From NCBI GenBank assembly GCA_003223875.1, contig QHWY01000005.1, positions 1 through 42,085 of the forward strand: DNA of 42,085 bases, read 5' to 3'. The first letter of the stretch is position 1. Each line of letters begins with the position of its first letter. The DNA comes from Acidobacteriota bacterium. GTDB taxonomy: Bacteria; Acidobacteriota; Terriglobia; 20CM-2-55-15. The notes under the pieces were generated by a model. The model ran no database searches. It saw only the letters and a list, made by a program, of their open reading frames with translations, and had not been told where the DNA came from. Of this stretch, positions 1-39,137 are shown piece after piece. A program made the position numbers and the translations under genes.

Positions 1-27
1 CTTTAAACCGCATGCGAAGATATTGTA

Positions 28-1765: not shown

Positions 1766-2256
1766 TTCACCTGCACTGAAATACCGCAGACCATTAGCAC
1801 CACGTGGTCCGCAATTTTAGCCACACGCTGGTTCATCAGCCCGGAATAATCGCGGAACCGGCGAGCTAGCGCATTGTCCGGAACAATGGACCACCCCAGT
1901 TCGTTCGTAACGGCCACGATGTCTGCTTCAGTGACACGCAAGGCACTACATAACGATTCAATCTGTCTCCCGGCTTGCTCTTCGGCGCGCAGAACCCAAT
2001 TGGACAGCCAAAGAGTCAGACAATCGACGACGACAACACCTCGCAATCTCAACAGATGTTTCGACACGTCGTAGGCTTCTTCGATCGTTTCCCACCGAAC
2101 ACCTCGTTCCAAGCGATGGCGTTCGGCCCGCTGCCGCATCTCTTCGTCCAACAGTTCAGCCGTAGCGATGTAAGTTTTCGGATTTTTTGCGCCGGCATAT
2201 GTGAGCGCGTGACGCGTCTTGCCGCTGCGCGCTCCTCCAGTGATAAGGATAATCAT
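1762..2256 (-). CDS. cobU: Bifunctional adenosylcobinamide kinase / adenosylcobinamide-phosphate guanylyltransferase CobU
   Basis: CobU phosphorylates adenosylcobinamide and then transfers GMP to it, making adenosylcobinamide-GDP for CobS. The 164-residue protein matches the compact CobU/CobP family. It has an N-terminal P-loop GGARSGKT (residues 7-14), a His in AERHRLERG (His47) corresponding to the guanylylated His of Salmonella CobU, the Walker-B-like VVVVDCLTLWLSN, and the C-terminal NQRVAKIADHVVLMVCGI stretch. The start ATG overlaps the btuF stop as ATGA, which supports 2256. The stop overlaps the start of cobS. The kinase activity allows salvage of imported cobinamide, in line with the transport genes in the same operon. 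Confidence 0.95.
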   Translation of the reverse strand: MIILITGGARSGKTRHALTYAGAKNPKTYIATAELLDEEMRQRAERHRLERGVRWETIEEAYDVSKHLLRLRGVVVVDCLTLWLSNWVLRAEEQAGRQIESLCSALRVTEADIVAVTNELGWSIVPDNALARRFRDYSGLMNQRVAKIADHVVLMVCGISVQVK

Positions 2257-4109: not shown

Positions 4110-5017
4110 ATTCCCACCGCCAGATAAGAGAAGCCCGCGACGCTATACATTAACGACCGGACAGTTGCGAAACGATTCCATTGCAGTTCGTAAATCGGAT
4201 CGCCGAGGAATGGCTTTTGCGAGGGATGACCGAAGTAGTAGTTCAAGCCACCGAGTCGCACACCTAAAGCCCCGGCGAGCGCGGCTTCCGGATATCCAGC
4301 ATTTGGAGAAGGCTGTAACCGGGCGTCTCGTAAAATTGTGGCGGCGGCACTTCGCCATCGAAGCCGTAACAGCACTGCAGCAAGCACGATGATTCCAGCC
4401 GTTATCCGGGCCGGTATGTAATTCGCTACATCATCCAACCGTGCGGCCGCCCAACCGAACCGAAGGTAATGTTCGTTCTTATAACCGATCATGGAATCCA
4501 TCGTGTTGATCGCCTTATAAATGACCATCCCCGGAATGCCTAAAACGGCGAGAAAAAATAAGGGCGCAACGATACCGTCGCTCAGGTTCTCCGCGACGGT
4601 TTCAAAAACAGCGCGCGTGATTTCGCTTTCGCACAAACCCTGTGTGTCTCGTCCAACGATTTGTCCGACCAGATCTCGGGCGCGGTTGAGATGTCCAGAA
4701 CGCAAGGCTTCGATGACTCGAACGGCGTGCTGATCGAGACTGCGCAACGCGAGGCAACTGAAGATCCAATACACCGCAAGAGGAAATCCGCCCCATCGCA
4801 ATGTGGCGGTAGTGAAGCCCAATGTAACGAACAGAACAATGACTACCAGTACCGAGCCTCCCGTTTGCTCGTGAGGGAAGATTCGCCGCAAAAATGATTC
4901 GAACCGGCGAACGAGGAAGCCGACACCTTCAACCGGATGGGGCAACCATCGAGGATCTCCGATCATGAGATCCAGGACGGCCGCCATGGCAAATTCGGCC
5001 GTATTCGCTTCGATCAT
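4094..5017 (-). CDS. cbiB: Adenosylcobinamide-phosphate synthase CbiB
   Basis: CbiB is a membrane enzyme that attaches aminopropanol (phosphate) to adenosylcobyric acid. The 307-residue product is the family length and has several hydrophobic helices. It shows the family's N-terminal motif DLMIGDPRWLPHPVEGVG (residues 16-33) and the conserved NTMDSMIGYKNEHYLRFGWAAARLDD region in the middle, a CbiB signature. The start ATG overlaps the cobQ stop as ATGA. The 3' end overlaps the decarboxylase gene that supplies its co-substrate, so the two are likely made in step. In some naming schemes this protein is called CobD; here CbiB is used to avoid confusion with the decarboxylase. Confidence 0.95.
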   Translation of the reverse strand: MIEANTAEFAMAAVLDLMIGDPRWLPHPVEGVGFLVRRFESFLRRIFPHEQTGGSVLVVIVLFVTLGFTTATLRWGGFPLAVYWIFSCLALRSLDQHAVRVIEALRSGHLNRARDLVGQIVGRDTQGLCESEITRAVFETVAENLSDGIVAPLFFLAVLGIPGMVIYKAINTMDSMIGYKNEHYLRFGWAAARLDDVANYIPARITAGIIVLAAVLLRLRWRSAAATILRDARLQPSPNAGYPEAALAGALGVRLGGLNYYFGHPSQKPFLGDPIYELQWNRFATVRSLMYSVAGFSYLAVGIWLQF

Positions 5018-6456
5018 TGGAGCAACTCGTAAATCCGTTCAATATCGAGATGGGTTTTTGCTGTCGCGGCCAGCCGGTCGTACTCCTGATCCTTCGAATA
5101 GCGAAATTTCGCAGGGCGCCAGTTGAGCCGGCGGCTCTCTGCGACGATCGATAAAAACTCTCGCGTAAATTCCGGATTGTCAAAAAGCCCATGAAAGTAC
5201 GTGCCCGCGATCCTGCCGCACACGATTCCATCGGAGGCTCCGTCTTCCTTTTGAATAAAGTGATCGACAGGTTCCAGCGGCTCGGTTCTGCCCATGTGGA
5301 TCTCGTATCCGGAAACCCTTGTGCCAAGGAAGGAGCGGCCCTGGGATTGAACGGTCAGCTTCTCGCGGCCGAGTTCGGTTTCGGCAGGCAACAATTGAAG
5401 TCCTTCCAGGCATCCGCCCTCTTCCACCCCAAATGGATCGGATATGTTTCGGCCCAGCATTTGATATCCGCCGCAGATTCCGAGAACCCATCCGCCATGT
5501 TCCAGCGTGTCGAACAACAGTGCCTTGAAGCCTCGCTCGTATAGCCACCGCAGGTCACTGATCGTATTTTTCGTTCCAGGAATAATTAAGAGGTCCACGG
5601 TGGAGGCCGGTTCGGTGAGATATTCCACAGCGACATCGGGGATCGTTTCGAGCGCATTGAAGTCGGTGTAGTTCGAAATATGCGGCAGCCGGATGACGCC
5701 GACGCGAAAGGCTCCTTGACGTTTCGCTCGATCGTCGAGCGAAACGCTGTCCTCCTGATCGATACGGAGAGATTCAATGTAGGGCAACACACCGAAGCAT
5801 GGACGCTTCGTGCGCTGTTCCAATAATGCGGGGCCTCCATCGAACAAGCGCAGGTCGCCGCGAAAGCGATTGATGATGAACCCTCGAACAAGGTCGCGCT
5901 CGTCATCATCCAAGAGAGCAAACGTACCTATAATCGATGCGAACACCCCGCCGCGATCAATGTCGGCCACCAGCAAAGCCCGGCTGCCCGCCGCTTTCGC
6001 AAACGGCAGATTGACAATATCGCGATCTTTGAGGTTTAACTCCACGGCGCTTCCGGCGCCTTCGAGTAAGATGCAGTCAAATTTCTGTGCAAGGCGATGG
6101 AAACTCTCCAAGACTTCCTTAAAGAAGAACGATTTCTGCTCGTAGTACTCCGTGGCTGTCATCGTTCCATAAACCCGGCCGTGCAGTACAACCTGAATCT
6201 TACGATCCGTGTTTGGCTTGAGCAGAATCGGATTCATGTCCGATTCCGGTTCAATGCCCGCGGCTTCGGCCTGGGCGACTTGAGCGCGTCCTATTTCACT
6301 GCCGTCCCGGCAGACGAATGAATTTAGGGCCATGTTCTGTGACTTAAAAGGAGCCACTCGCAAGCCGTGTTGACGAAATATTCGGCAAAGGGCGGTGACC
6401 ATAATGCTTTTCCCCACATGCGATGCCGTTCCAATAACCATCAAGCTCTTGCTCAT
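5014..6456 (-). CDS. cobQ: Cobyric acid synthase CobQ/CbiP
   Basis: CobQ amidates four side chains of adenosylcobyrinic acid a,c-diamide using glutamine and ATP, giving adenosylcobyric acid. From the ATG at 6456 it has 480 residues. The N-terminal DTB-synthetase-like ATPase domain starts with VIGTASHVGKS and contains FKSQNMALNS and EGAGSAVELNLKDRD. The C-terminal class I glutamine amidotransferase domain has IIPGTKNTISDL and the nucleophile Cys in GICGGYQMLG (about residue 328), with GTYFHGLFDN near the end. I prefer 6456 over the open upstream codons because this ATG overlaps the receptor stop as ATGA. The enzyme acts on a late corrinoid precursor, yet no ring-synthesis genes are nearby. Confidence 0.95.
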   Translation of the reverse strand: MSKSLMVIGTASHVGKSIMVTALCRIFRQHGLRVAPFKSQNMALNSFVCRDGSEIGRAQVAQAEAAGIEPESDMNPILLKPNTDRKIQVVLHGRVYGTMTATEYYEQKSFFFKEVLESFHRLAQKFDCILLEGAGSAVELNLKDRDIVNLPFAKAAGSRALLVADIDRGGVFASIIGTFALLDDDERDLVRGFIINRFRGDLRLFDGGPALLEQRTKRPCFGVLPYIESLRIDQEDSVSLDDRAKRQGAFRVGVIRLPHISNYTDFNALETIPDVAVEYLTEPASTVDLLIIPGTKNTISDLRWLYERGFKALLFDTLEHGGWVLGICGGYQMLGRNISDPFGVEEGGCLEGLQLLPAETELGREKLTVQSQGRSFLGTRVSGYEIHMGRTEPLEPVDHFIQKEDGASDGIVCGRIAGTYFHGLFDNPEFTREFLSIVAESRRLNWRPAKFRYSKDQEYDRLAATAKTHLDIERIYELLQ

Positions 6457-24481: not shown

Positions 24482-27334
24482 CTAGAGCGCTCGAATCAAA
24501 GCTTCCGCGGGATGTAGGGGACGCCGGCCCGTGGCGTGTTCGACCTGCTGCCTGCACGAGATGCCCGGCGCGACCACAATGGCGTTCGGGTTGTTTTCCA
24601 CGGCAGGAAAGAGACGGCGGCGGCCTATGGCAATAGAAATGTCGTAATGTTCCTTTTCGTAGCCGAACGAGCCGGCCATGCCGCAGCAGCCGGAATCGAT
24701 TTCTTCGACTGGATAAGCAAGCGCAATGGCTTCCTTCAAATAACGAGAGCCGATAAGCGCCTTCTCGTGACAATGTCCGTGGATAAGAGCTTTCGTTTGC
24801 TGCCGCTTGAATTCAAGCTTCCATCGTCCCGCTTGTTTCTCTTTTACGATGAATTCTTCGAGTAGAAACGACATTTTCGCCACATCTTTTGCGTACTGAC
24901 TTTTGACAAGATCCGGATACTCGTCTCTAAACGTGAGAATACAGCTGGGCTCGCAACCGATAATCGAGTAGCCGTTTTCAACAAATGAATAGAGTTGCCG
25001 GACGTTGAATTCCGCGTTCTCCCCTGCAGCTTTCGGAAGACCTTTCGAAATCATCGGACGGCCGCAACACTTTCGCTCCGCGAGACGAACCTCGTAGCCG
25101 GCCGCTTCGAGCAGTTGGACGGTCGCTTTCCCGATGTCCGGATAGTTGTAGTTCACGAACGTGTCGTGAAAAAAAACCACCCTGCCATTGGAAATTTGAG
25201 ATTTCGAATTTCCATTTTGAGATTTATGGCGCTTCGCAAACCACGATTCAAAGGTTTCCGGCGCGAAGAGCGGCAGCTTGCGCCGAGCATCAATTCCTAC
25301 AAACCGATCGAGCGCGCGGCGGATGGCCGCGCGGGTCAGCGTCCAATTCGCGATTGAGGGCCAGATCGCGGCCGCTTTACTCATTGCATGAATGTTGGCA
25401 AACATCCGCGCGCGCAACGGCGTGCCTTTGACTTCATTGTAATGTGCGAGAAATTCGTATTTCAGCTTGGCCATGTCCACGTTGGAAGGACACTCGGCCT
25501 TACAACCTTTACATTCGAGGCAGAGGTCAAGTGTCTCGTAAAGATCCTTGCCGGTGAATTCTTCGGGTGGCAACTTTCCCGACAAGATCTCACGCATTAG
25601 GTTCGCACGGCCGCGCGTGGAGTGCTTGTCTTCAAGGGTAACCATGTACGAAGGACACATCGTCCCTTCGTTTTTCTTGCGGCAAACGCCCGCCCCGTTG
25701 CACAGCTCAACAGCTGTGGCAAATCCCCCCTCGCGGGAGAAGTCGTAGTGCGTGTCGATCGTTATCGTGCGGTACTGTGCTCCATAGCGCAGATTTTCTG
25801 TCATCGGCGGCGCGTCGACGATCTTCCCGGGATTCATTCGGTGATCCGGATCGAAAGCCGCCTTTACCTGCCGGAATGCGTTGTAGAGTTGCGCGCCAAA
25901 AAGTTTCTCGTTGAGATGGCTACGCGCCAGTCCGTCACCGTGTTCGCCACTCATACCGCCGCCAAACGCGATAACAAGGTCCGCGATTTCGTTCGTCATC
26001 TCCTTCATGACCTGAATATCCCGCGCGTCCTTTGTATTGATGAGCGGCCGGATATGCAAACACCCGACACTGGCGTGGCCGTAGTATCCAGCGCTGGTTT
26101 TATATTTCTGAATCACGTCGCGGAATTTCACGAAGAATTCCGGCAGCTTTGCAGGTTCGACTGCGCAATCCTCGACAAATGCGATCGGCTTGCGCTCCCC
26201 TTTCATGCCGAGCAGCAATCCCAGACCGGCTTTTCTGACTTTCCAGATATTGGTTTGGTCGATCTGGTCGAACGCTCGAACGTAGGCATACCCCGCTTTG
26301 TCGCGCTTCAATACCGCTTCCATCTCGTCCAGCTTTGAACACAGCTCTGCCTGATTTTCGCCGTAGAACTCGACGATCAGAACAGCAGCGGGATTTCCCT
26401 GAATAAATCCCATCAGCCGAGAGATTTCCAGAGAATTCCGGCCGAGCTGGATAATCATGTCATCGATCAGTTCGATCGCTGCAGGTTTGAAGGGCAGGAT
26501 CACGTCGCTCGCGCGAATGGACTCCACGATGTCCGCGAAATGCACAACACAAACGGCTGTCGCCGGCGGACGCGGTTCGATGCGCACTTTGGCTTGATGC
26601 ACCGCCGCGAGCGTGCCTTCGGACCCCACGACGAGTTTGACGAGATTGAATTTTCCGTTTCGAACAAATTCATCAAGGTTGTATCCACTGACGCGTCGCA
26701 TGATCTTTGGATATCGGCGTTCGATTTCATCGCGATTGGCTCGCACGATTTCCGCGATACGCCCTTCGAGACCACCTCTCGCGACCGCCTCTTCACATTT
26801 CATTTCGCGCAGGGTTCGTCCTTCACCCGATGACAGGATGACATCCATCTCGAGAATGTGATCGATCGTTTTTCCGTAAAGGATGGAATGCGAACCGGCG
26901 GAATTATTGCCCATCATTCCGCCCAGCGTGGCCCGGTTGGCGGTGGATGTGTCCGGACCAAACAGGAATCCCATGGGCCGCAGATGAAGATTGAGTTGTT
27001 CCTGAACTACCCCCGGCTCGACAATCGCCCACCGCTCCTCGGTATTCGCCTCGAGAACGCGGTTGAGATACTTCGACATGTCTATGACGACCGCATCACC
27101 GACAGTTTGTCCTGCGAGGCTAGTTCCTGCACCACGCGGAAGCACAGGGACCTTGAAATCCCGCGCAATTTCCATCGTGGCGAAAACATCCTCATGGGTT
27201 CGTGGGATAACAACGCCGATGGGCTCTATTTCATAGATACTGGCGTCGGTGCTGTACATCAGGCGCGAGGCACGGTCAAAGCGGACTTCGCCACTGACAC
27301 GGGATTTCAGAGAGCGATAAAGATCTTGGTTCAT
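24482..27334 (-). CDS. FAD-linked oxidase / Fe-S / CCG-domain fusion (GlcD-GlpC-like dehydrogenase)
   Basis: A 950-residue fusion. Residues 35-210 are the FAD-binding-4 domain (GVVIPRTHEDVFATMEIA, LPRGAGTSLAGQTVGD, MGNNSAGSHSI). Residues 210-510 are the FAD-oxidase C domain with GGGMSGEHGDGLARS. Two Fe-S motif regions follow (GAGVCRKKNEGTMCPSY and CLECKGCKAECPSNVDMAK), then two CCG-type domains (ERKCCGRPMISKGLPKA; HCHEKALIG; GCCGMAGSFGYEKE). The layout matches D-lactate / glycolate / 2-hydroxyacid dehydrogenases that feed electrons to quinones. The ATG at 27334 is preferred to a TTG two codons earlier. Between the Fe-S and CCG parts there is an AT-rich insert at 25186-25227 encoding a KSQNGNSKSQISNG linker. 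Confidence 0.88.
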   Translation of the reverse strand: MNQDLYRSLKSRVSGEVRFDRASRLMYSTDASIYEIEPIGVVIPRTHEDVFATMEIARDFKVPVLPRGAGTSLAGQTVGDAVVIDMSKYLNRVLEANTEERWAIVEPGVVQEQLNLHLRPMGFLFGPDTSTANRATLGGMMGNNSAGSHSILYGKTIDHILEMDVILSSGEGRTLREMKCEEAVARGGLEGRIAEIVRANRDEIERRYPKIMRRVSGYNLDEFVRNGKFNLVKLVVGSEGTLAAVHQAKVRIEPRPPATAVCVVHFADIVESIRASDVILPFKPAAIELIDDMIIQLGRNSLEISRLMGFIQGNPAAVLIVEFYGENQAELCSKLDEMEAVLKRDKAGYAYVRAFDQIDQTNIWKVRKAGLGLLLGMKGERKPIAFVEDCAVEPAKLPEFFVKFRDVIQKYKTSAGYYGHASVGCLHIRPLINTKDARDIQVMKEMTNEIADLVIAFGGGMSGEHGDGLARSHLNEKLFGAQLYNAFRQVKAAFDPDHRMNPGKIVDAPPMTENLRYGAQYRTITIDTHYDFSREGGFATAVELCNGAGVCRKKNEGTMCPSYMVTLEDKHSTRGRANLMREILSGKLPPEEFTGKDLYETLDLCLECKGCKAECPSNVDMAKLKYEFLAHYNEVKGTPLRARMFANIHAMSKAAAIWPSIANWTLTRAAIRRALDRFVGIDARRKLPLFAPETFESWFAKRHKSQNGNSKSQISNGRVVFFHDTFVNYNYPDIGKATVQLLEAAGYEVRLAERKCCGRPMISKGLPKAAGENAEFNVRQLYSFVENGYSIIGCEPSCILTFRDEYPDLVKSQYAKDVAKMSFLLEEFIVKEKQAGRWKLEFKRQQTKALIHGHCHEKALIGSRYLKEAIALAYPVEEIDSGCCGMAGSFGYEKEHYDISIAIGRRRLFPAVENNPNAIVVAPGISCRQQVEHATGRRPLHPAEALIRAL
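25186..25227 (-). repeat. AT-rich repeat-like insert in the FAD-FeS gene
   Basis: This 42-bp stretch contains the word TTTGAGATTT twice and a GGAAAT ... ATTTCC inverted pair. It is much richer in A+T than the gene around it. It keeps the frame and encodes a Ser/Asn/Lys-rich linker in front of the conserved FFHDTFVNYN strand. Its character is that of intergenic simple repeats rather than of coding DNA. Confidence 0.5.
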
Positions 27335-27381
27335 AAACAATTCACGGGGAGTTTAGCAAACCCAAAAAAGAGAACTAGCCA

Positions 27382-27443
27382 CAAAAAGGCACATAAAACA
27401 CAAATTTTTTCGGCCTGTCTGTTGTGTCTTATGTGCCTCTTTG
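27382..27443. repeat. Long inverted repeat between rpsU and the FAD-FeS gene
   Basis: Two 22-bp arms, matching at 20 positions (AGGCACATAA ... TTATGTGCCT at the core), are separated by an 18-bp loop that holds a six-T run. It lies 12 bp after the rpsU stop on the minus strand, so it may terminate or protect the rpsU transcript. The A-rich wording resembles dispersed intergenic palindromes known from many genomes. Confidence 0.7.
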
Positions 27444-27455
27444 TCGTTAAATTTT

Positions 27456-27656
27456 TTATTCTACCGGCTCCCGGCGAACTTTCTTTCGGCTGCGTTTGCG
27501 CGCCAATGCTTGCTTGATCCGTTTCTTTTCACCAGGTTTCAGGTAAAAGGAATGTTTTTTCACTTCCTTGATTATGTCTTCCTGTTGGACCTTTCGCTTG
27601 AATCGCCGCAGCGCATTTTCGATGGATTCACCATCTTGAATCCGAACCTCGGCCAA
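27456..27656 (-). CDS. rpsU: 30S ribosomal protein S21
   Basis: A 66-residue basic protein matching S21 along its length: VRIQDGESIENALRRFKRKVQQEDI at the start, then KKHSFYLKPGEKKRIKQALARKR. S21 helps the small subunit recognise mRNA starts. The start codon appears to be TTG at 27656 with a G-rich ribosome-binding site upstream; no better ATG is in frame. It is divergent from the next gene and not part of a visible ribosomal operon. Confidence 0.93.
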   Translation of the reverse strand: MAEVRIQDGESIENALRRFKRKVQQEDIIKEVKKHSFYLKPGEKKRIKQALARKRSRKKVRREPVE

Positions 27657-27714
27657 TCAACCCACCCCCATTCCGGTTGCGATAGACTTTTGATTATCAC
27701 ATACTTCGGGAATT

Positions 27715-28347
27715 ATGGCGATCTGTCCATTGTGTTCTCATAGGCAGGGGAAGCGGTATTGTCCCGCAGTAGCCGAGCAGATATGCGCGGTTTGTTGTGG
27801 CACCAAGCGGGAAATCGAAATCGACTGTCCATCTTCGTGTTCTTACCTGAAAGCAAGCCGTACATACGAATTGGAAAAACCAATACCTTACCCACAGGTT
27901 GCCGACAAAGTTCACAATTATGACGAACGCTTTATTCAGCGCTATCAGCAGATATTGGACGCGGTTACCGGCTCCGTTTTGGAAGAACGGCTGACCTCGG
28001 CGTGGCTTGTCGACAATGATGTCATCGAGGTTTTCAAAAGTCTCAATGCCACAATGAAGACGCTGTCCAGCGGCATTTACTACGAATCATTGCCTGAGAC
28101 ACCCGTACGGCTTTCCTTGTTCCGCCGATTGAAATCTGTGCTTGATGAGTTCATGAAGCCGGATCCGGGCGCAGCCCGTAATGCGCTAAAAGTAACGGAA
28201 GCCATCGAAGTTTTAGATTTCCTGGCTCTGGTGGCTCAGGCGAATTCAAGCGTCCGCCCTAAGAGCCGAAGGTATTTGGATTGGTTGGCCGACAGGTTCG
28301 GGGTTTTGCCGCCGGCAGTGCAATCCAGTGGCATTATTCTTCCTTAG
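27715..28347 (+). CDS. Cysteine-rich N-terminal protein of unknown function
   Basis: A 210-residue soluble protein with no family I can name. The first 42 residues hold eight cysteines (C4, C7, C16, C24, C27, C28, C38, C42) in a pattern suited to one or two zinc sites, with the SYL turn that follows ending the cluster. Residues 60-210 are mainly helical (for example YDERFIQRYQQILDAVTGS and RLSLFRRLKSVLDEFM). There is no signal or membrane segment. The gene diverges from rpsU and is followed by a GT9 gene six bases later, so the two are co-transcribed. The cysteine cluster suggests a nucleic-acid- or protein-binding role; this is a guess. Confidence 0.75.
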   Translation: MAICPLCSHRQGKRYCPAVAEQICAVCCGTKREIEIDCPSSCSYLKASRTYELEKPIPYPQVADKVHNYDERFIQRYQQILDAVTGSVLEERLTSAWLVDNDVIEVFKSLNATMKTLSSGIYYESLPETPVRLSLFRRLKSVLDEFMKPDPGAARNALKVTEAIEVLDFLALVAQANSSVRPKSRRYLDWLADRFGVLPPAVQSSGIILP

Positions 28348-28353
28348 CGCTTC

Positions 28354-29418
28354 GTGAAGGTCCTAGCGATCCGGTTCGCTCGTCTGGGAGATGTGGTCCT
28401 TTTGCTGCCTGCTCTTTCTTCGCTCAAACACGCCTTTCCCGATATCCGGCTGACACTGCTAACAGGCAACCTCTGCGCGCCGCTTGCGGAAATGTGTCCG
28501 GCTATAGACGAGGTGCTCGCCGTCGATCGCGTTGCGATGCGTGACGGGCCCGTACGGACGGCACTGCGAGACATGCATCGACTCGTTCGCGACGTACGGC
28601 GACGCCGGTTTGATCTGGTCATCGATTTTCATAGTTTCAGAGAAACCAATCTTCTGACTTGGCTGTCGGGTGCGCCGGTGAGAATTGGCATGAAAAAGTA
28701 CAAATCGCCATATCTGAGGTTCTGTTTTAACAAGCCTCCTGTGTCTGAAGACAAGTCGTTGCATGTTTCAGCAATGTTCGAAAAAGTCGTTGAAGCGACA
28801 ATTTCCCTCCTCGCCGACGAGAGCTGGCGATGCGAAGCGCGAGCCCGGCAGGGCGAAGCCTCAAGGGAAGCGCCGGGATGGTCAGTTCGGCGACAAACTA
28901 AGTCTTTGTCTATTCCAGATGAAATGCTGCAGTGGGCGAACGAGCTTTCATCAAACAAACTGAGGCTCGCGTTGTATGTTGATGCGCCCGTGACTGAGAG
29001 GATCTGGCCGCCGGAACGCTTTGCGGCGATCGCCGATTTTGCCATCGAACGGTGGGCTGCGCTGCCAATCGTCATGTCCGGTCAGCGACGGCAGGATCTG
29101 ATTCAGCGCGTAAAGCGCGCGAGCAGAAACGCCGACCAGCTTGCCGTATTCAGCGATATTACAATCCCGCAACTCGCTGCTTTGATCGCCTCGGCGCGTA
29201 TTTTCATCAGTAACGATACCGGACCAATGCATATCGGCCCGGCTGTGGGCGTTCGCACTTTGGGACTCTTCAGTGTGGGTTATCCCGAGCATTTTCGGCC
29301 CATGGGGCTGAATGACTCCGTTCTGAGAGGGAATCCGATTGAAAAAATTCAAACGACAGACGTGATTGCGATCGCGAATGAAATGTGGATTACTGCTGGT
29401 CCAAATCTTCGATGCTGA
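28354..29418 (+). CDS. GT9-family heptosyltransferase-like glycosyltransferase
   Basis: A 354-residue GT-B glycosyltransferase of family 9, like the ADP-heptose:LPS heptosyltransferases that build the core of lipopolysaccharide at the inner membrane. The N-terminal motif is VLAIRFARLGDVVLLLPALSSLKHAFP and the C-terminal donor-binding motif is SNDTGPMHIGPAVGVRTLGLF. GTG at 28354 is the start. Residues about 160-171 (CEARARQGEASR) are encoded by a 35-bp interspersed repeat that is also found between genes; this sits in the linker between the two Rossmann domains and leaves the frame open. The 3' end overlaps a converging gene by 29 bp. Confidence 0.85.
   Translation: MKVLAIRFARLGDVVLLLPALSSLKHAFPDIRLTLLTGNLCAPLAEMCPAIDEVLAVDRVAMRDGPVRTALRDMHRLVRDVRRRRFDLVIDFHSFRETNLLTWLSGAPVRIGMKKYKSPYLRFCFNKPPVSEDKSLHVSAMFEKVVEATISLLADESWRCEARARQGEASREAPGWSVRRQTKSLSIPDEMLQWANELSSNKLRLALYVDAPVTERIWPPERFAAIADFAIERWAALPIVMSGQRRQDLIQRVKRASRNADQLAVFSDITIPQLAALIASARIFISNDTGPMHIGPAVGVRTLGLFSVGYPEHFRPMGLNDSVLRGNPIEKIQTTDVIAIANEMWITAGPNLRC
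28831..28865 (+). repeat. 35-bp GC-rich interspersed repeat, copy 2, inside the GT9 gene
   Basis: This stretch equals copy 1 (13667-13701, opposite strand) at 33 of 35 positions. It is read through in the GT9 frame as CEARARQGEASR, between the N-terminal domain and KSLSIPDEM. Its presence both between genes and inside a gene marks it as a mobile or dispersed element. Confidence 0.8.
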
Positions 29419-29701
29419 TTTTTAGCGAGCGAAGAAACTTTAGATCCTGAGCGGTGACCTTCAACTTCATCTCGCCGCTTTTCAGTCCATTCACTCCTGC
29501 TACTTCTTCTCCGCCGTCCGTTTTTGAACGCTTGTTGAAGCCAATGGTGGCTTCCAAGACTAGGAATACATCGTAGCCGGCGTTTCGAACGTTCTGGATC
29601 GCTTCACTGATTTCTTCGGATTCAGAAAGCGCATCATTGATCGCAGCGCCGAGTTCCTTCATAAGCTGCTTCAGATTGTCATCCAATTGCATTCGGACCA
29701 T
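29390..29701 (-). CDS. Small unknown protein
   Basis: A 103-residue protein from the ATG at 29701 (an upstream ATG at 29710 is also in frame). The first half is helical (LKQLMKELGAAINDALSESEEISEAIQNV), followed by GYDVFLVLEATIGFNKR and a C-terminal LKVTAQDLKFLRSLKISIEDL. There is no membrane segment or cysteine. The composition and length look like a real cytoplasmic protein, but I do not recognise the family. It converges on and overlaps the GT9 gene by 29 bp at their 3' ends. Confidence 0.6.
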   Translation of the reverse strand: MVRMQLDDNLKQLMKELGAAINDALSESEEISEAIQNVRNAGYDVFLVLEATIGFNKRSKTDGGEEVAGVNGLKSGEMKLKVTAQDLKFLRSLKISIEDLDQQ

Positions 29702-29826
29702 CCTACGCACAATGCTTGAATTTGGTCAATTCACAATTTAACCGCTTCAGTGTCTGACTTGGTGATAGTCTAGGCGGTTCAAGTCACAGCTATTGATGAG
29801 CACGTTTATAGCCGTTAAGATGACGG

Positions 29827-30084
29827 ATGCCCACCATGCCGGGAAAGCTCAAACTCATTTTTGGCCACTTTCTCAGAACCTTGCGCCAGCTCTGGTTAGA
29901 GTTCATTGGGGGAATTTTTCTGGCGTTGGGCGTTCTGTTTGTCTTCGCGGCAATACAGGAATACCGAAAATACATCCGGGCTCCCGAACTGGGCACCGGC
30001 CGGTTCCTGATGGTGCTTCTCTCCTCCATCGTCATGCTGTTCTTCGCGCTCGAGAGCTTCTGGAAATCGAGGAAGCCCTGGTAG
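29827..30084 (+). CDS. Small two-helix membrane protein upstream of the sigma factor
   Basis: An 85-residue protein with a basic N-terminus (KLKLIFGHFLRTLRQ), a membrane helix at about 24-43 (LEFIGGIFLALGVLFVFAAI), a polar loop (QEYRKYIRAPELGTGR) and a second helix at about 60-78 (FLMVLLSSIVMLFFALESF), ending in a basic tail. The start could be ATG 29827 or 29836. Its stop TAG shares a base with the GTG start of the sigma factor gene, which indicates coupled translation. A membrane anchor or signal-input role for the downstream module is possible; nothing in the sequence says what it senses. Confidence 0.7.
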   Translation: MPTMPGKLKLIFGHFLRTLRQLWLEFIGGIFLALGVLFVFAAIQEYRKYIRAPELGTGRFLMVLLSSIVMLFFALESFWKSRKPW

Positions 30085-30647
30085 TGAGCACTTCCACGTA
30101 TAATGACGCGGAATTGGTTGCGATGTGTCTCACGGGGGACGCCGCGGCGTGGGAGACCTTGCTCCGCCGCTATCGCCGTTTCATCTACTCCATTCCGGTA
30201 AAGTTTGGCTTGCAGCCTGACGACGCGGCGGATATCTTTCAGACGGTGTGCGTGAAATGGATCGAACATCTTCATGAACTTAGGGATGAAAGAAAGCTCA
30301 AGCCGTGGCTGTTCACCACAACAACGCGACAGTGCCTCACTTGGGGTTTAGCCAAGCAACGAGAGGTCACGGCAACAGACGAGCAGTTCGAGGAGTTGTT
30401 CGGGCCGGCAAACGACTTGGACGAGATGAAAATTTTTGTCGAAAGGCAACAGGCAATTCGAGACAGCGTTGAGGAACTGCCGTCCCGGTGCAGGTCCCTG
30501 ATTGACATGCTATACTTGGACGGGCGTTTGCGGTCCTATCAGGAAATTGGCCAGCTTGTTGGAATGTCGGCGGCCAGCATCGGTGCAAATCGAGCACGCT
30601 GTCTGGAGAAACTGAGGAAGATCCTTCAGAAGCGGGGTCTGAACTAA
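30084..30647 (+). CDS. ECF-type RNA polymerase sigma factor
   Basis: A 187-residue sigma-70 family protein with only regions 2 and 4. Region 2 (about residues 22-85) reads LLRRYRRFIYSIPVKFGL, DDAADIFQTVCVKWIEHL and RKLKPWLFTTTTRQCL. Region 4 (about 130-185) is LPSRCRSLIDMLYLDGR, SYQEIGQLVGMSAASIGANRARCLEKLRKIL, the helix-turn-helix that reads the -35 box. GTG at 30084 is chosen because it overlaps the upstream stop; the longer frame to 29793 is the shadow of the membrane protein gene. The next gene encodes a zinc-finger protein and then a TPR-CHAT protein, so it probably directs a response triggered through those. Confidence 0.92.
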   Translation: MSTSTYNDAELVAMCLTGDAAAWETLLRRYRRFIYSIPVKFGLQPDDAADIFQTVCVKWIEHLHELRDERKLKPWLFTTTTRQCLTWGLAKQREVTATDEQFEELFGPANDLDEMKIFVERQQAIRDSVEELPSRCRSLIDMLYLDGRLRSYQEIGQLVGMSAASIGANRARCLEKLRKILQKRGLN

Positions 30648-30680
30648 AAAATTTACGAAGAGTTCAAAATTTTTGTATTT

Positions 30681-30709
30681 TTGACCCTGTCTCGTCTGTC
30701 TTATAGATA
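30681..30709 (+). promoter_or_regulatory. Candidate sigma-70-like promoter before the zinc-finger gene
   Basis: TTGACC at 30681 is followed at 15-17 bp by TATAGATA (30702-30709), about 60 bp upstream of the zinc-finger gene. The -35 is near consensus while the -10 is fair. This would allow the zinc-finger and CHAT genes to be expressed apart from the sigma gene. Confidence 0.4.
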
Positions 30710-30769
30710 GAGGGACTTTTAATCCCGAGCGGATTGCCCTCCAAGGATGACAGCGAAAGGAGCTAGGGA

Positions 30770-31384
30770 ATGCGACACGTAACTGTTGAGAATCTAATCG
30801 ATTACATCGAACATCGGACTTCCAATGTCGAAAAATCGACATTGGAGGATCATCTGGCAAACTGCAGTGACTGTGGAGAATTAAATCAGGAATTTCAGGT
30901 TGTGATCGCTCGACTCCGGGAAGACGCTTCTTTCGAACCGCCCGCTGAGCTGCTTCAGTGGGGTATCAATCTATTCCAACCTGTTGCGCAACCCAAGGGC
31001 GTCGCTTCCGGTCTGAGGAAATTCATCGCTTCTCTGGTATTCGATACTTATGATCAGCCCATGATGGCCGGCGTACGCCGCGTCGGAGCGCCGCCGCGGC
31101 AGCTATTGTTTCGCGCCGGCGATGTGGACGTGGATGTGAAGATCGAATCGATGGAAGCCAACGATCGCATCACCCTTGTTGGACAGGTCTTGTCCAGCAA
31201 TGCCAAATTCTTCGATAATACTCCAGTTAAACTGGAGTCCCACGGTATCGTCCGTTACCGCACCCGAACCAACGTGGTCGGTGAGTTCTCGTTCGACGAA
31301 GTGCCGAAGGATACTTATCATCTTTCGGTGGATTTGCCCGAAGGGCAGATCACGCTGTTTTGCGTCCACCGCGGCAACTCTTAG
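30770..31384 (+). CDS. Zinc-finger putative anti-sigma protein with C-terminal beta domain
   Basis: A 204-residue soluble protein. Residues 1-40 are a zf-HC2-like anti-sigma domain with the ligand pattern EDHLANCSDC (His-x3-Cys-x2-Cys). Residues 85-135 contain FDTYDQPMMAGVRRVGAPPR and LLFRAGDVDVDVKIES. Residues 140-204 are a beta domain like the carboxypeptidase-regulatory fold (LVGQVLSSNAK, NVVGEFSFDEVPKDTYHLSV). No membrane segment is present, unlike many anti-sigma factors. Between a sigma gene and a CHAT protease gene it is the natural candidate for the sigma-binding switch and perhaps a protease substrate. That role is inference. Confidence 0.8.
   Translation: MRHVTVENLIDYIEHRTSNVEKSTLEDHLANCSDCGELNQEFQVVIARLREDASFEPPAELLQWGINLFQPVAQPKGVASGLRKFIASLVFDTYDQPMMAGVRRVGAPPRQLLFRAGDVDVDVKIESMEANDRITLVGQVLSSNAKFFDNTPVKLESHGIVRYRTRTNVVGEFSFDEVPKDTYHLSVDLPEGQITLFCVHRGNS
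30821..30846. repeat. 11-bp-arm palindrome inside the zinc-finger gene
   Basis: TCCAATGTCGA and TCGACATTGGA flank a four-A loop, 51 bp into the gene. The encoded peptide (SNVEKSTLE) fits the normal spacing of the zinc-finger helix, so it is not an obvious insertion. It could be a binding site or an mRNA hairpin near the start of translation. Confidence 0.5.
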
Positions 31385-31410
31385 TTTAAAATTCAAATCT
31401 TGAGTCCGCT

Positions 31411-31510
31411 GTGGACCTGGTTTACTCCACGGGATGGCCCCGTGGAGTAAACGTCATTCGTGCTGGAAGTTTAACAAAAGACTTTCGGACGTGCAGGAAA
31501 CGAGGTCCAC
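31411..31510 (+). promoter_or_regulatory. Structured leader upstream of the CHAT gene
   Basis: An inner perfect 14-bp stem (31420-31433 with 31439-31452, core TTTACTCCACGG / CCGTGGAGTAAA) closes a five-base loop. An outer pair, GTGGACCT at 31411 and AGGTCCAC at 31503, can enclose it. The CHAT GTG start follows 19 nt later. There is no T-run, so simple termination is unlikely; RNA processing, attenuation or translational control are options. Confidence 0.55.
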
Positions 31511-31528
31511 GTAGGAAGCGTTGGAGTC

Positions 31529-34372
31529 GTGACTGTTACGAATGCCGAAGATTTTCTGGCCGGTTTGGTCCAGATTCGGGATACTGCCCAGCAACGGGCT
31601 TTCATCTCGAACGCTTCCGGTTTGCCTAGCCAGGCGCTTGTCGAATCTATTTCAACAAAAATCCGCGAACTGTTGCCGCGCGACCCGGAATTGGCTCAGA
31701 TCCTTGCCGAGACCAATCTCTATGTCGCGTCATTGCTCGACCAACCGTTAGCCTGGGCTCACGCTAACCGCTCGCTAGCACAGGTTCTATACACCATGCG
31801 GAAGTCGACCGAAGCTGATTCCTATTTTGAGAAAGCTGTCGAGCTTTTCGAAAAGGCGCAACTCCGTGGGGAAGTTGGTCGGACACTCGTCGGACAGATG
31901 GATAATTTGATGTACCTGAGCCGGTATAGCGAAGCGCTCGATCTGGCCGAGCGCGCACGCGTCGCGCTGGAAGAAGCACAGGACGTCTCGTACCTCTCCA
32001 CATTGGAGATCGCGCTCGGTAACGTCTATTACCGGCTCAATCGATATCCCGAATCTCTGAGCCATTACGACCGCGCTCAACAATTGCTGGAAAACACCGA
32101 CAACACACTGGCGCACGCGTCGCTCGCCTCGATCGGTCTGAACCGCGCCTATGTACTGACCGAAATGAACCGGTTTGACGAGGCGGTCCAATCGTTCGAG
32201 ATAACCAAAAAACATTGCGAACGTCACGGTCTTGCACTGTGGGCGGCGATTGCGGATCGCGGTATATCGCAGATGCACTTCCGGCGCGGTAATTATTCAA
32301 CCGCGTTGCGCATTCTCGAACAGGTGCGGCGGCGCCATGTGGAACTCGACGACGCACGTCGTGTCGGCCTGTGCGACATGGATCGCGCCGAAATTTATCT
32401 GGAGCTGAATCTGTTTGATGATGCGGCCAATATCGCAGCGCGCGCCTACGACATTTTCCAGCGGCTCGGTAATCGGTACGAAGCGGCAAAGTGCCTGACC
32501 TACCAAGGCATCGCATATTTCAAGACATTGCAGGACAAGGATGCGGAAAAAGCCCTATTTGCCGCCCGTGAAATTTTCGTTAAAGAAGGAAACGATCTGT
32601 GGGTGGCTGTCGTCGACTTGTGGCGGGCTCAGCTTCTCACCCGCCAGCAGCAATTCTCGACAGCTCAGGAATTGGCCCAACGTTCGGCTGAAATTTTCGA
32701 GAGCCAGCAGGCTCCGGCGCGCGCAGCGAATGCTCGGGTACTTTCGGCCCAAAGCTTTCTGGAATTAGAAGAGAGGACTCCGGCTTTACGAGAGGCCCAG
32801 AAGGCCCTCGATAGAATCGAAGGATACCATGCGCCGTGGGTTTCCTATCAGTGCTACAACACGCTGGGTCGATTGAAGGAACTCAACGGGGCGATCGATG
32901 AAGCCGAGCAGCTTTATATGAAGGCGATCGATCAAATGGAATCGTTGCGAGGCAATATTCGGTTAGACGAAATGCGGATGTCGTTCGGCCGCGACAAATA
33001 TCAGGTCTACGAAAATATTGTGAATCTGAAATTGACGAAGGGCGACGCCCGCGCCGCTTTCCAGTTTGTCGAGCGATCGAAGTCCCGAACGTTAATCGAC
33101 CTGCTCGAGAAAAATCTCGAAACGGTATGGGACACTGGTGTCGATGATTCTCCCAGGTTGCAGCGCATCCGCAAAATCCGTGAAGAACTCAATATCTTCT
33201 ACAGCCGGCTCAACGACGTCGGCACCACGGCACGGCCCGACGCCAACACGGTCACGCAAGAAGAGATCGCGCGGCGCGAGCAAGAATTGGTGGAACTGCT
33301 CAGAGAGGTAGGATCGGAAAAGTCCGGGTGGGCGACCTTGCAAAGCATGAAAATTCCGGACGTCGAAGAAGTCCAGGCCATGCTTCAGCCGGATGAAGTG
33401 ATGGTCGAATACTACACCATTGCCGATCGCGTTCAGGCGTTCATCATTACCCGCAACAAATTCGAGGTGGCCCGGAATTTAACGACAACGAGCACCGTAC
33501 GAACGGCGCTGAAGGGCTTTACATTTCAACTCTCGAAGTTTCATCTCCAACCTGCATACTTGGAATCGCATGCGCCGATGCTCTTGAAGGGCATTCAATA
33601 TCATCTTCGCGAGCTCCATCGCCATCTGATCGAGCCGATCCAAGAGAAGATTACCCGGCCTTCGTTGATTTTTGTTCCTCATCATCTTCTGCATTACGTG
33701 CCATTTCACGCCTTGTACAACGGCACAAATTACCTCATCGATTCGCAAGCCGTGAGCCGCGGCGCCAGCGCGTCGGTGCTAAAGATATGCCACGAGAAGA
33801 AGATACAAAAAACCGAACAAGATCTGGTCTTGGCTGTTGCCGACGAGATGACACCTCACATTAATGAAGAGGTCGCTGCACTCCGCGCCCTTCTTCCCAA
33901 AGGCCTTTTCTTTGTCGGGCGCGAAGCCCGGGAAGACAAGCTGCGCCGATATGGTCCGACTGCCGGCAAACTGCATATCGCGGCGCATGGAATCTTTCGC
34001 GCCGACAATCCGATGTTTTCTTCATTGAAGTTGGGTGATAGCTGGCTAAACCTCTTCGATATATTCAACCTGCAGCTCGGGGCAGAACTGACCGTGTTGA
34101 GCGCCTGCGAAACCGGGATGAGCGCCGTCTGGGAAGGAGATGAACTGCTAGGGCTGGCCCGAGGCTTCCTTTACGCGGGAACTCCATCGCTTGTCGTGAG
34201 TCTTTGGACGGTAAACGATCGCTCGACAGCTCAACTGATGCGCCGTTTCTATGAGGCTCTCCACCGCGGAGTTTCGAAAGCGCGGGCTCTACAGGAAGCC
34301 ATCTTGGATGTAAAAGCCGCGTTCCCTCACCCCTACCACTGGGCGCCGTTCATCTTGATGGGAAAGTCATGA
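31529..34372 (+). CDS. TPR-CHAT protein (caspase-like peptidase)
   Basis: A 947-residue cytoplasmic protein. Residues about 60-490 form an array of TPR helices (units such as LDLAERARVALEEAQDV, GNVYYRLNRYPESLSHYDRA, LGRLKELNGAIDEAEQLYMKA). Residues 490-620 are a helical linker. Residues about 640-947 are a CHAT peptidase domain with FVPHHLLHYVPFHAL, the catalytic His820 in LHIAAHGIF and Cys860 in LSACETG, then GFLYAGTPSLVVSLWTV and the typical ending YHWAPFILMG. Both catalytic residues are intact, so it is probably an active cysteine protease. The GTG start has a GGAG site. TPRs likely bind a partner that turns the protease on. Located after the sigma and zinc-finger genes. Confidence 0.93.
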   Translation: MTVTNAEDFLAGLVQIRDTAQQRAFISNASGLPSQALVESISTKIRELLPRDPELAQILAETNLYVASLLDQPLAWAHANRSLAQVLYTMRKSTEADSYFEKAVELFEKAQLRGEVGRTLVGQMDNLMYLSRYSEALDLAERARVALEEAQDVSYLSTLEIALGNVYYRLNRYPESLSHYDRAQQLLENTDNTLAHASLASIGLNRAYVLTEMNRFDEAVQSFEITKKHCERHGLALWAAIADRGISQMHFRRGNYSTALRILEQVRRRHVELDDARRVGLCDMDRAEIYLELNLFDDAANIAARAYDIFQRLGNRYEAAKCLTYQGIAYFKTLQDKDAEKALFAAREIFVKEGNDLWVAVVDLWRAQLLTRQQQFSTAQELAQRSAEIFESQQAPARAANARVLSAQSFLELEERTPALREAQKALDRIEGYHAPWVSYQCYNTLGRLKELNGAIDEAEQLYMKAIDQMESLRGNIRLDEMRMSFGRDKYQVYENIVNLKLTKGDARAAFQFVERSKSRTLIDLLEKNLETVWDTGVDDSPRLQRIRKIREELNIFYSRLNDVGTTARPDANTVTQEEIARREQELVELLREVGSEKSGWATLQSMKIPDVEEVQAMLQPDEVMVEYYTIADRVQAFIITRNKFEVARNLTTTSTVRTALKGFTFQLSKFHLQPAYLESHAPMLLKGIQYHLRELHRHLIEPIQEKITRPSLIFVPHHLLHYVPFHALYNGTNYLIDSQAVSRGASASVLKICHEKKIQKTEQDLVLAVADEMTPHINEEVAALRALLPKGLFFVGREAREDKLRRYGPTAGKLHIAAHGIFRADNPMFSSLKLGDSWLNLFDIFNLQLGAELTVLSACETGMSAVWEGDELLGLARGFLYAGTPSLVVSLWTVNDRSTAQLMRRFYEALHRGVSKARALQEAILDVKAAFPHPYHWAPFILMGKS

Positions 34373-34373
34373 T

Positions 34374-34442
34374 GGAGAAATTCGGGGACAGTGAGCAATT
34401 TCTTGCCGTTTCAGAAATTGCTCACTGTCCCCGAATTTCTCC
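34374..34442. repeat. 69-bp perfect palindromic element between CHAT and mutase genes
   Basis: Two perfect 29-bp arms (core GGGGACAGTGAGCAATTTC and its complement) flank an 11-bp loop. It starts one base after the CHAT stop and ends 19 bp before the mutase ATG. GGGGACAGT-type palindromes are of the sort associated with REP/RAYT elements. As RNA it would form a very strong hairpin at the CHAT mRNA end. Confidence 0.85.
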
Positions 34443-34461
34443 TTTGCGGTAATCTAGTGTC

Positions 34462-36039
34462 ATGCGTGACTTGAAATCCCTCCGGCAGACCGATTCCGGT
34501 ATCGAGTGGGAGTCTTTCTACCGGCCTAATAAGGAAACGCGCAATGATTTGCCCGGCGAATATCCCTACACACGAGGCATTCAGCCGAACATGTATCGCG
34601 GCCGGCTCTGGACGATGCGCCAGTATGCTGGGTTCGGATCGGCTGCGGAAACCAATCAACGATTCAAATACCTTCTTGCCCACGGACAAACGGGTCTTTC
34701 CGTCGCTTTCGACCTGCCGACACAGATGGGATTGGATTCGGATCATACGCTTGCGGCCGGTGAAGTTGGAAAAGTCGGTGTAGCCATTGATACCCTTCGC
34801 GACATGGAAACGGTGTTTGAGGGTATTCCGCTGGATCAAGTCTCGACTTCAATGACTATTAACGCGACCGCCGCAATCCTGCTCGCGATGTACATCGCCG
34901 TCGCGAAGAAGCAGGGTCTGTCACCGCTGGTCATCAACGGCACGGTTCAAAACGACATTCTGAAGGAATACATTGCTCGCGGTTTGTACATTTATCCGCC
35001 GCGGTTCTCACTCCGGCTGGTCACCGATGTTTTTGATTATTGCCGCGAGAACGTACCCAATTGGAATACGATTTCGATTAGCGGCTACCACATTCGAGAG
35101 GCCGGCTCGACTGCGATACAGGAGCTCGCTTTCACGTTCGCGAACGCGATTATGTATGTGCAAGCGGCAGTCGATTCGGGCTTGGACATTGATTCCTTTG
35201 CGCCGCGGCTATCGTTTTTCTTCGATACCCATAATGATTTTCTGGAAGAGATCTCGAAATTCCGCGCCGCCCGACGCATATGGGCGAAGATCACCAAGGA
35301 ACGGTTTGGCGCCAGGAACCCAAAGTCATGGATGCTTCGATTCCATGCGCAAACCGCCGGCTCATCACTCACAGCACAACAGCCGGACAACAACGTCATT
35401 CGTGTTGCTATACAGGCGTTGGCGGCGGTACTGGGCGGTACCCAATCCTTACATACAAATTCGAAAGACGAAGCACTTGCGATCCCCACCGAAGAGGCTG
35501 CGCGGCTAGCCCTTCGAACTCAGCAGATCATTGCATACGAATCCGGCGTCACAAGCACAGTTGATCCGGTTGGTGGGTCTTATGCCATCGAAACGCTCAC
35601 TGAAAAGATCGAAGCCGGCGTCGGACAATTGCTCGAAAAGATCGATGGTCTTGGAGGTATGCTGACCGCAATCGAAAGCGGTTGGATACAGTGCCAGATT
35701 CAAGAGGCGGCATACCGATACCAGCGATCGATCGAGGAGAAAGATCGAATTATTGTAGGAGTCAACCAGTTTCAGACCGAAGAGGAACAGAAAATTCCGA
35801 TCCACATTTCGGATCCCGCACTTGAAGCAGCTCAAATTGAAAATCTTTCCCAGACCCGGGCTAACCGTAACGAGTCTGCGGCGCGCGGCGCGCTCGACCG
35901 TCTAGAAAATGCCGCAAGGGGTTCGCAAAACCTGATGCCGTACATACTTGAAGCCGTTGAAGCCTACGCGACCGTGGGGGAAATTTCGGATGCTTTCCGT
36001 AGAGCCCACGGCGAATACCGGGAGGCTTTGACGATTTGA
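34462..36039 (+). CDS. Methylmalonyl-CoA mutase large (catalytic) subunit, separate-domain type
   Basis: A 525-residue acyl-CoA mutase barrel domain: [26 protein letters not shown] near residue 34, [16 protein letters not shown] near 80, [11 protein letters not shown] with active-site His210, and [18 protein letters not shown] near 295. The enzyme interconverts methylmalonyl-CoA and succinyl-CoA using adenosylcobalamin. The usual C-terminal B12-binding domain (DxHxxG motif) is missing, so this is the heteromeric form that needs a separate small subunit, not found in the window. A different CoA mutase such as isobutyryl- or ethylmalonyl-type cannot be ruled out. It fits with the cobalamin operon at the other end. 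The stop overlaps oppD. Confidence 0.88.
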
Positions 36040-37004
36040 CCAGCGTTCTCGAAGTCAAAAATCTCAAAACTTATTTTTTCACTGAGCAAGGAATCATCAA
36101 AGCCGTCGACGACGTTTCCTTCAGTGTTCCCAAAGGCGCTACTCTTGGCCTAGTAGGAGAAAGCGGCTGCGGGAAGAGCGTAACGGCTATGTCGATTACT
36201 CGCCTCGTCAGCGCTCCGGGGCGAATCGTCGGCGGCGAGGTTCTCTTGAACGGCTGCGATCTTCTTTCGAAGTCAGATAAGGAGATGAGGCAAGTTCGAG
36301 GCGCGCAGATTGCGATGATCTTCCAGGAGCCGATGACCGCGTTAAATCCAGTTTTTGAAGTCGGTTTTCAGATCGCTGAGGCGGTCCTTGCCCATGAAAA
36401 GGTTTCCAAGCGCGAAGCCTGGTCGCGCGCCGTGGAAGCGATGAAAGCCGTTTCGATTCCGGACCCGGAGAAACGAGCTAAGGATTATCCGCACCGGCTT
36501 TCTGGGGGTATGCGCCAGCGCATCATGATTGCGATGGCGCTGGTTTGCCATCCGGCTCTCGTCATTGCCGACGAACCGACAACGGCCCTCGATGTTACGA
36601 TTCAGGCACAGATTATCGAGTTGCTGGACAAGCTTCGCGAAGAATATCACCTCTCGTTGATTTTGATTTCACATGACTTGGGTGTGGTCGCCGAAGTCGC
36701 GGAAACCGTCGCCGTGATGTATGCAGGCAAAATTGTCGAAATCGGTCGCGCAATCGATATTTTTCACAATCCGAAGCATCCATACACAGAAGGGCTTCTT
36801 CGATCCGTCCCGCGTCTTGGTTCTAGCGTTCAAAAAAAGGACCGGCTCGAGGTGATCGAAGGCATGGTTCCGGATTTATTGCGCCTTCCCGATGGATGCT
36901 CGTTCGCCCCGCGCTGTTATAAAAGAACTGTCGAATGCACGCTCTCTCCGATTCCGCTGGAGCACGTGTCCGAAAACCATGAGGTCCGCTGCATTCATGC
37001 CTGA
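36036..37004 (+). CDS. Opp/Dpp-type peptide ABC transporter ATPase (OppD-like)
   Basis: A 322-residue ABC ATPase with Walker [15 protein letters not shown] (residue about 39), Q-loop [11 protein letters not shown], signature [15 protein letters not shown], Walker [15 protein letters not shown] and H-loop LISHDLGVV. The C-terminal oligo_HPY region includes [13 protein letters not shown] and the cysteine-bearing [15 protein letters not shown]. The start is TTG at 36036, overlapping the mutase stop. It powers a di/oligopeptide or related importer at the inner membrane. No permease or binding protein is adjacent. Substrate unknown. Confidence 0.9.
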
Positions 37005-37971
37005 TGGAGCCGAGCCCCTGCTGAGGGTTCGAAATCTTAAGAAATATTTTCCCATCCGGCGGGGTCTTCTCTCACACATTGCTGGACACGTAAAAGCTGT
37101 TGACGACATCAGTTTCGACATCAATAAAGGAGAAACATTCGGCCTGGTCGGCGAATCTGGCTGTGGCAAAACTACAGCCGGCCGTGCCATTCTGCGTCTC
37201 ATTGAGCCGGATGCCGGGACTGTACGATTCGATAGCATCGATCTTCTCCAATTGCGGAAGCAAGAATTGCGCCGCAAACGGCGCGATATGCAAATCATCT
37301 TTCAGGATCCATACGCATCATTGAATCCTCGCATGACGATCCGAACAATCGTCGGCGAACCCTTTGCGATTCACCGGCTCGCCGCGGGTTTGGAGCGAGA
37401 GCACCGCGTCGCTGATCTTTTGAAGACTGTTGGCCTTGATCCCGTCATGATGAACCGGTATCCGCACGAGTTCAGTGGCGGACAGCGACAAAGAATCGGT
37501 ATCGCGCGAGCGTTGGCGCTTAAACCAAAACTTGTTGTTGCGGACGAACCGGTGTCGGCGCTGGATGTCTCGATCCAAGCGCAGATCATCAATCTGTTGG
37601 CCGATCTACAACAGCAGTTTGGATTGACTTACTTATTTATTTCGCACGCGATTCCTGTTATCGAACACATTTCAACGCGTATTGGCGTCATGTATCTGGG
37701 CGAACTAGTGGAAGTGGGGACAAGCGCCCAGATCTGTTTGGCTCCGAAGCATCCTTATACACAAGCTCTGCTCAGCGCCGTACCGATACCTGATCCCGCC
37801 GCAAAAAAACAGCGTATCGTGCTGCATGGTGACGTGCCGACTCCGATCAATCCGCCAAGCGGATGCCGATTCCATACCCGTTGTCCCATTGCCGTGGAAC
37901 GCTGCAAAACAGAAGAACCACCATTACGGCAGATCGAGGACGGCCGGGATGTGTCCTGTCATCTGGTTTGA
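36997..37971 (+). CDS. Opp/Dpp-type peptide ABC transporter ATPase (OppF-like)
   Basis: A 324-residue partner ATPase. Walker A is [15 protein letters not shown]-loop [14 protein letters not shown], signature [15 protein letters not shown], Walker [15 protein letters not shown], and the C-terminus holds [15 protein letters not shown] and [15 protein letters not shown]. The H-loop reads FISHAIPVI instead of the usual SHDL; the His is kept and only the following Asp is changed. The ATG at 36997 overlaps the oppD-like gene by 8 bp and is preferred to the upstream-open frame. With the neighbour it forms the normal heterodimer. Confidence 0.9.

Positions 37972-39137
<1,166 letters not shown>

Follow-up and report, generated by a model that had tools for sequence, protein, structure and literature searches.

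Positions 29827–34372 of contig QHWY01000005.1 from an Acidobacteriota bacterium, analyzed here over its full 42,085 nucleotides (the window), hold one copy of a gene module that is widespread in bacteria, real, and conserved. Its core consists of an extracytoplasmic function (ECF) sigma factor, a soluble protein in which a zinc-binding anti-sigma (ZAS) domain is followed by a beta domain, and a candidate caspase-like protease with tetratricopeptide repeats (TPRs) and a CHAT domain. The explanation that we favor, at about an even chance, is that the module operates as a CRISPR-free cytoplasmic switch. The sigma factor would be bound by the neighboring soluble anti-sigma protein through the ZAS domain, and the TPR-CHAT protease would use the beta domain as its docking or receiver part. 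Once activated, the protease would cut or unseat the anti-sigma protein, possibly within the disordered linker (residues 69–82), and the freed sigma factor would transcribe the ZAS/beta and CHAT genes from a promoter-like element, GTATTTTT-N16-TC, and in other lineages a secreted subtilase. With inhibitor and protease rising in step, the response would be a pulse that limits itself. We infer sigma binding, promoter recognition, docking, and cleavage from the observed gene content, synteny, anti-sigma homology, protease residues, promoter element, and linkage and co-divergence of the beta domain and CHAT.

The four genes of the locus lie in a row on the forward strand, as the first-pass annotation had described. 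The first module gene in the window's family encodes an 85-amino acid protein (29827–30084) with two hydrophobic, predicted transmembrane segments by hydropathy; it has no Pfam family and shows 43%–84% identity among family relatives, where it occupies the same position. Its TAG stop (30082–30084) has one base in common with the GTG start of the sigma gene (30084–30647), which bears out the overlap noted earlier. Both sigma regions proposed at that stage are matched in Pfam, region 2 at 4e-11 and region 4 at 6e-5, the latter slightly below the gathering score. A gap of 122 nt separates the sigma gene from that of the 204-amino acid anti-sigma candidate (30770–31384), in which the ZAS domain spans approximately residues 1–70 and a C-terminal β sandwich approximately residues 83–204. 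The 947-amino acid TPR-CHAT protein follows (31529–34372).

The middle protein had been described as zf-HC2-like and devoid of a membrane helix. Its Pfam match to zf-HC2 (6e-5) is indeed above the cut-off, and hydropathy detects no transmembrane segment (maximum 0.69); a second match, to CarboxypepD_reg, is weak and below the cut-off. A profile built from 17 relatives matches the anti-sigma factor RsiW (E = 7e-8) across the zinc motif and the next helix, with weaker matches to RslA, DdvA, and ChrR. The zinc motif is H28-x3-C32-x2-C35, with H3 as a possible fourth ligand. The resulting spacing, H3-x24-H28-x3-C32-x2-C35, is presumably that of ZAS domains such as that of ChrR. An AlphaFold2 model (pLDDT 83) consists of four helices followed by a β sandwich, and ChrR ranks first among its fold matches, none of which falls under an E value of 0.001. 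By profile and predicted fold, the N terminus is thus a ZAS anti-sigma domain, which would bind the sigma factor; the earlier suggestion that the zinc-finger protein inhibits sigma gains support from both the RsiW and the ChrR matches. We also co-folded the sigma and anti-sigma genes of locus L019, which are in one frame and were read through their stops as a single tethered chain (pLDDT 79, pTM 0.67). The nine best PDB matches of this model are sigma chains of anti-sigma complexes, at a root-mean-square deviation (rmsd) of 13–16 Å, and ECF sigma factors bound to RNA polymerase rank after them, at approximately 23–27 Å. The predicted arrangement is therefore nearer to anti-sigma complexes than to polymerase-bound forms but close to neither, and it lends only indirect support to the proposed sigma/anti-sigma pairing.

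The TPR-CHAT protein is a candidate protease with intact catalytic residues. Its CHAT domain matches PF12770 at 4e-59 (201 bits against a cut-off of 24), TPRs are also matched, and the protein matches the CHAT parts of Csx29 structures at an E value of 4e-10. The two catalytic residues identified at the outset, His820 and Cys860, are invariant in an alignment of 17 module CHAT proteins, and the pair is kept in every sigma-bearing module copy whose catalytic region is covered. An apparent loss of the cysteine in many copies proved, on alignment, to be a pattern artifact caused by LSGC in place of LSAC. Only L016 is without both residues: this CHAT paralog (2–3064), which adjoins a subtilase gene, has Glu and Leu replacing the catalytic His and Cys and is likely to be a pseudo-protease.

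Conservation of the gene set is evident from scans with single components. With sigma sequences as the sole query against GTDB genomes, 21 strongly similar loci (L019–L039) were recovered, and a CHAT gene lies alongside in 17 (16 on the retrieved stretches, and L019 on its contig from the genome). With the beta domain as the sole query against 198 other genomes of the phylum, we found 20 loci in 11 genomes, 17 of which have CHAT alongside and 16 also a sigma gene; L068, one of these loci, and L032 are one and the same contig. The window genome itself encodes 11 CHAT genes and 20 sigma genes, and five of the latter adjoin CHAT. We found modules of sigma, ZAS/beta, and CHAT genes, most of them accompanied by a secreted S8 subtilase, in Acidobacteriota, in Armatimonadota/Chthonomonadales, and in one Ideonella, and sigma with CHAT only in one Anaerolineae (Chloroflexota) and one Zixibacteria record. 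Gene orders differ among modules and include sigma-ZAS/beta-CHAT, with or without S8, and sigma-CHAT-ZAS/beta-S8. Relatives of at least three genera carry the window's own four-gene order at the same chromosomal position, so the co-occurrence is conserved both within the family and over several phyla. The order in this family is fixed: u210, glycosyltransferase 9, u106 on the opposite strand, the membrane protein, sigma, ZAS/beta, and CHAT, and then methylmalonyl-CoA mutase, two ABC ATPases, and tgt, with some relatives' contigs stopping within the compared stretch. No subtilase is present at the locus of this family. In L020, L088, L089, and L090, the CHAT gene ends only 27–47 bases before the mutase gene, so transcriptional read-through is possible there.

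The beta domain of the window's ZAS/beta gene (residues 80–204; 31007–31381, forward strand) is near-invariant in orthologs and is the constant partner of CHAT. Between the window and its relative L020, identity is 53% for sigma and 40% for ZAS but 93% for the beta domain. Four-fold degenerate sites in the same genes are 0.62–0.72 different, which points to purifying selection on the beta domain rather than to recent transfer. Across eight orthologs, most blocks past residue 100 are 65%–95% invariant, as against approximately 15%–20% over residues 1–60. For comparison, the mutase is 62% invariant in four genomes. Seven of the eight strong beta domains in the window genome adjoin CHAT. Beta-domain distances correlate with those of the neighboring TPR/CHAT protein at r = 0.65–0.76 and with those of their own ZAS at 0.47–0.62 (23–30 loci). 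The jackknife difference is 0.18 with a standard error of 0.10, so closer tracking of CHAT than of its own ZAS is only suggestive. Where sigma is missing, the domain is joined to other N-terminal parts. In locus L012 (3822–4796, reverse strand), a NusG-like N terminus (5.5e-16) is fused to it, with CHAT and S8 adjoining. In L013 it follows an SH3/KOW-like part, with a sigma-54 activator adjoining, and L067 is likewise SH3/KOW-like without CHAT; this part has no Pfam match in either locus, and its assignment is our own reading.

Considered together, these fusions raise the tentative possibility that the beta domain serves as an exchangeable receiver linking TPR-CHAT proteases to factors acting on RNA polymerase, joined to ZAS in most loci, to a NusG-like part in L012, and perhaps to an SH3/KOW-like part in L013. 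If so, caspase-like proteases would feed into bacterial transcription generally and independently of CRISPR, and CRISPR type III-E would be one special case of the same logic.

The promoter-like element, TTGTATTTTT-N16-TCTTATAG (30673–30706, forward strand), lies in the gap between the sigma and ZAS/beta genes. Mean column identity in the alignment of this gap is 38%, and within it GTATTTTT (30675–30682) is invariant in all eight family members, as is a TC 15–16 bases on (30699–30700 in the window). With one mismatch allowed, the sole other site in the window's genome precedes the gene of an FHA-GAF-sigma-54 activator, and the same holds in the relative G199. Counted over 44 module loci, the pattern GTATTTT-N15..18-TC(A/T) has eight occurrences in the 40 kb preceding module genes, compared with five in 1.15 Mb of background (binomial 1.8e-9, some of the counted sites having been known before the test). 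In G157, a tighter pattern has five matches genome-wide, four of them at the module locus: one precedes ZAS/beta, one precedes S8, and two precede genes lying between these. A reverse-pattern control gives 0–2 matches per genome. The element is not general: it is confined to the window's family and a minority of distant modules, and it was not found in modules where CHAT directly overlaps sigma. The natural reading of GTATTTTT-N16-TC is that the module sigma factor regulates its own module.

The activator gene itself lies at L104 (2680–4509, reverse strand), with the element upstream at 4556–4581 and about 45 bases there nearly identical. Farther upstream, at approximately 4620–5060, is a tandem-repeat array with units containing GCATCGGCGTTTCCTGGACAGCATCTGACTTTGCTGTCCAGCATCCGCCGTTGCTG; a similar array occupies the same place in G199.

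Several loci sit uneasily with a protease/anti-sigma/sigma switch. L027, L029, L034, L083, L085, and L087 keep sigma and CHAT, but their zinc ligands or the greater part of ZAS have been lost; because ligands or first helices are gone in several lineages, zinc is not essential to the module. No beta protein was recognized in L036–L038 (Armatimonadota), in L024 (Chloroflexota), or in the partial L039 (Zixibacteria). In L074, a ZAS/beta gene adjoins a sigma-54 activator, and no sigma or CHAT gene lies close by; in L072 and L075, the sole partner of ZAS/beta is S8; and in L031, sigma and ZAS/beta stand together but CHAT is missing. In addition, Csx29 cuts Csx30 within a loop rather than in an interdomain linker (PMC10028731), so our guess of residues 69–82 as the cut site may be wrong.

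Comparison with known systems bears on the choice between explanations. A sigma/inhibitor/protease logic has been described in a CRISPR setting (PMC10028731): the type III-E Craspase (Csx29/Csx30/CASP-sigma) likewise comprises a TPR-CHAT protease, a two-domain sigma inhibitor, and an ECF sigma factor. The window locus differs from it in having no Cas7-11 (gRAMP), crRNA, or repeat array; its CHAT protein scores 55.8 bits against the Csx29 NCBIfam cut-off of 300; and its inhibitor is a ZAS/beta protein of 204 amino acids, whereas Csx30 is cut at residues 427–429 (PMC10028731), beyond that length. The first-pass annotation had envisaged a stress or defense response, and the shared logic and the Csx29 structure match would suit anti-phage defense with another sensor in place of CRISPR. 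We nevertheless regard this as very improbable. The locus is fixed and vertically inherited between a heptosyltransferase-like gene and the methylmalonyl-CoA mutase gene in several genera, PADLOC returns only a generic TPR match on the window's proteins, and no plasmid match of the ZAS/beta protein was found. The statement that CRISPR parts are missing holds: no repeat array is present in 26000–38000, and the neighbors (glycosyltransferase, mutase, ABC ATPases, and tgt) are conserved in relatives. The locus looks like an old cellular one rather than a mobile defense island, and the independent repetition of the linkage in several gene orders and phyla, together with the synteny, contradicts a chance juxtaposition of genes without common function, which we consider next to impossible.

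A further precedent is the ECF54 group, whose gene context includes CHAT, subtilase, and "carboxypeptidase" genes and for which proteolytic control without an anti-sigma factor has been proposed from that context (PMC8999054, after Casas-Pastor et al., 2021). Compared by gene context only, the wider module set resembles ECF54 in bringing a sigma factor together with CHAT, subtilase, and CarboxypepD_reg genes. The sigma/beta/CHAT triads that the annotation placed in several phyla are present, but their context had already been described. New relative to that description would be the anti-sigma ZAS domain, fused here to a carboxypeptidase-regulatory-like beta domain; the window's subtype also differs in having a small membrane protein and no subtilase. 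Direct cleavage of sigma or of another factor by CHAT or the subtilase, with no anti-sigma protein, appears improbable, since a ZAS domain homologous to RsiW, RslA, and ChrR stands beside the sigma gene in most modules and the context "carboxypeptidase" is probably the CarboxypepD_reg β fold and not an enzyme.

It is possible, if on the unlikely side, that CHAT is instead an output. The anti-sigma protein would then sense a signal, either through zinc or thiol chemistry at ZAS or through ligand binding by the beta domain, and free the sigma factor, which would raise CHAT, and the subtilase where present, to act on cell-envelope, cell-death, or other targets. The window's middle protein resembles Rhodobacter ChrR, RsiW, RslA, and RsrA in its N-terminal ZAS domain with H-x3-C-x2-C, and ChrR, a sensor anti-sigma and the nearest fold, also in being soluble with a C-terminal beta domain; in ChrR, however, that domain is a cupin, whereas here it is a CarboxypepD_reg-like sandwich linked to CHAT. 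CHAT as an output would agree with this likeness to a sensor, with the CHAT genes, and in some lineages S8, lying behind the promoter-like element, and with the conservation of the beta domain, which is as expected of a ligand-binding domain. Against it, the zinc ligands are lost in several lineages, and beta domains remain next to CHAT in loci that have lost sigma and ZAS, where they are joined to different transcription parts, a pattern that fits better with CHAT acting on the beta protein.

Two further systems offer partial parallels. The CalpL/CalpT/CalpS system of type III CRISPR, likened here by description, places protease, anti-sigma, and sigma in one operon, and differs in its SAVED-Lon protease and CRISPR signal. 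HetF of cyanobacteria is a CHAT protease in cellular regulation rather than defense, and it is not known to have a sigma or anti-sigma partner. Bacteria encode many caspase-like CHAT proteins, yet few of these have a known substrate. The locus offers a candidate for one, together with a target sigma factor and a candidate promoter, in a gene set small enough to be transferred to a laboratory host. If the proposed switch is correct, the inhibitor lacking from the ECF54-type context would be supplied, and Craspase's logic of protease, anti-sigma, and sigma would exist outside CRISPR as a stable cellular circuit.

Further features surround the module. A divergent gene just upstream (29390–29710, reverse strand) encodes a 106-amino acid protein without a Pfam family that is 82%–97% identical to the window copy across the family. 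Between ZAS/beta and CHAT, direct reading of the sequence reveals a perfect 14-nt inverted repeat, GTTTACTCCACGGG/CCCGTGGAGTAAAC (31420–31452, forward strand), which is absent from the aligned relatives. A perfect 30-nt inverted repeat (GGAGAAATTCGGGGACAGTGAGCAATTTCT...; 34374–34442) between the CHAT and mutase genes may be an inserted palindromic element, given the short CHAT-mutase junction of the relatives. Some module subtilases have ADIN where others have IDTG, namely those of L010 (8303–9634), L011 (6224–7531), L012 (1–800), L016 (3369–4679), and L030 (11539–12795); in this group Asn may take the place of the catalytic Asp, and all complete sequences retain the Ser. Finally, the window's genome has another triad at L009 (3432–7725, reverse strand), comprising a sigma factor, a protein whose Cys/His-rich N terminus is accompanied by TPRs and one transmembrane segment, and a CHAT protein that probably carries a signal peptide.

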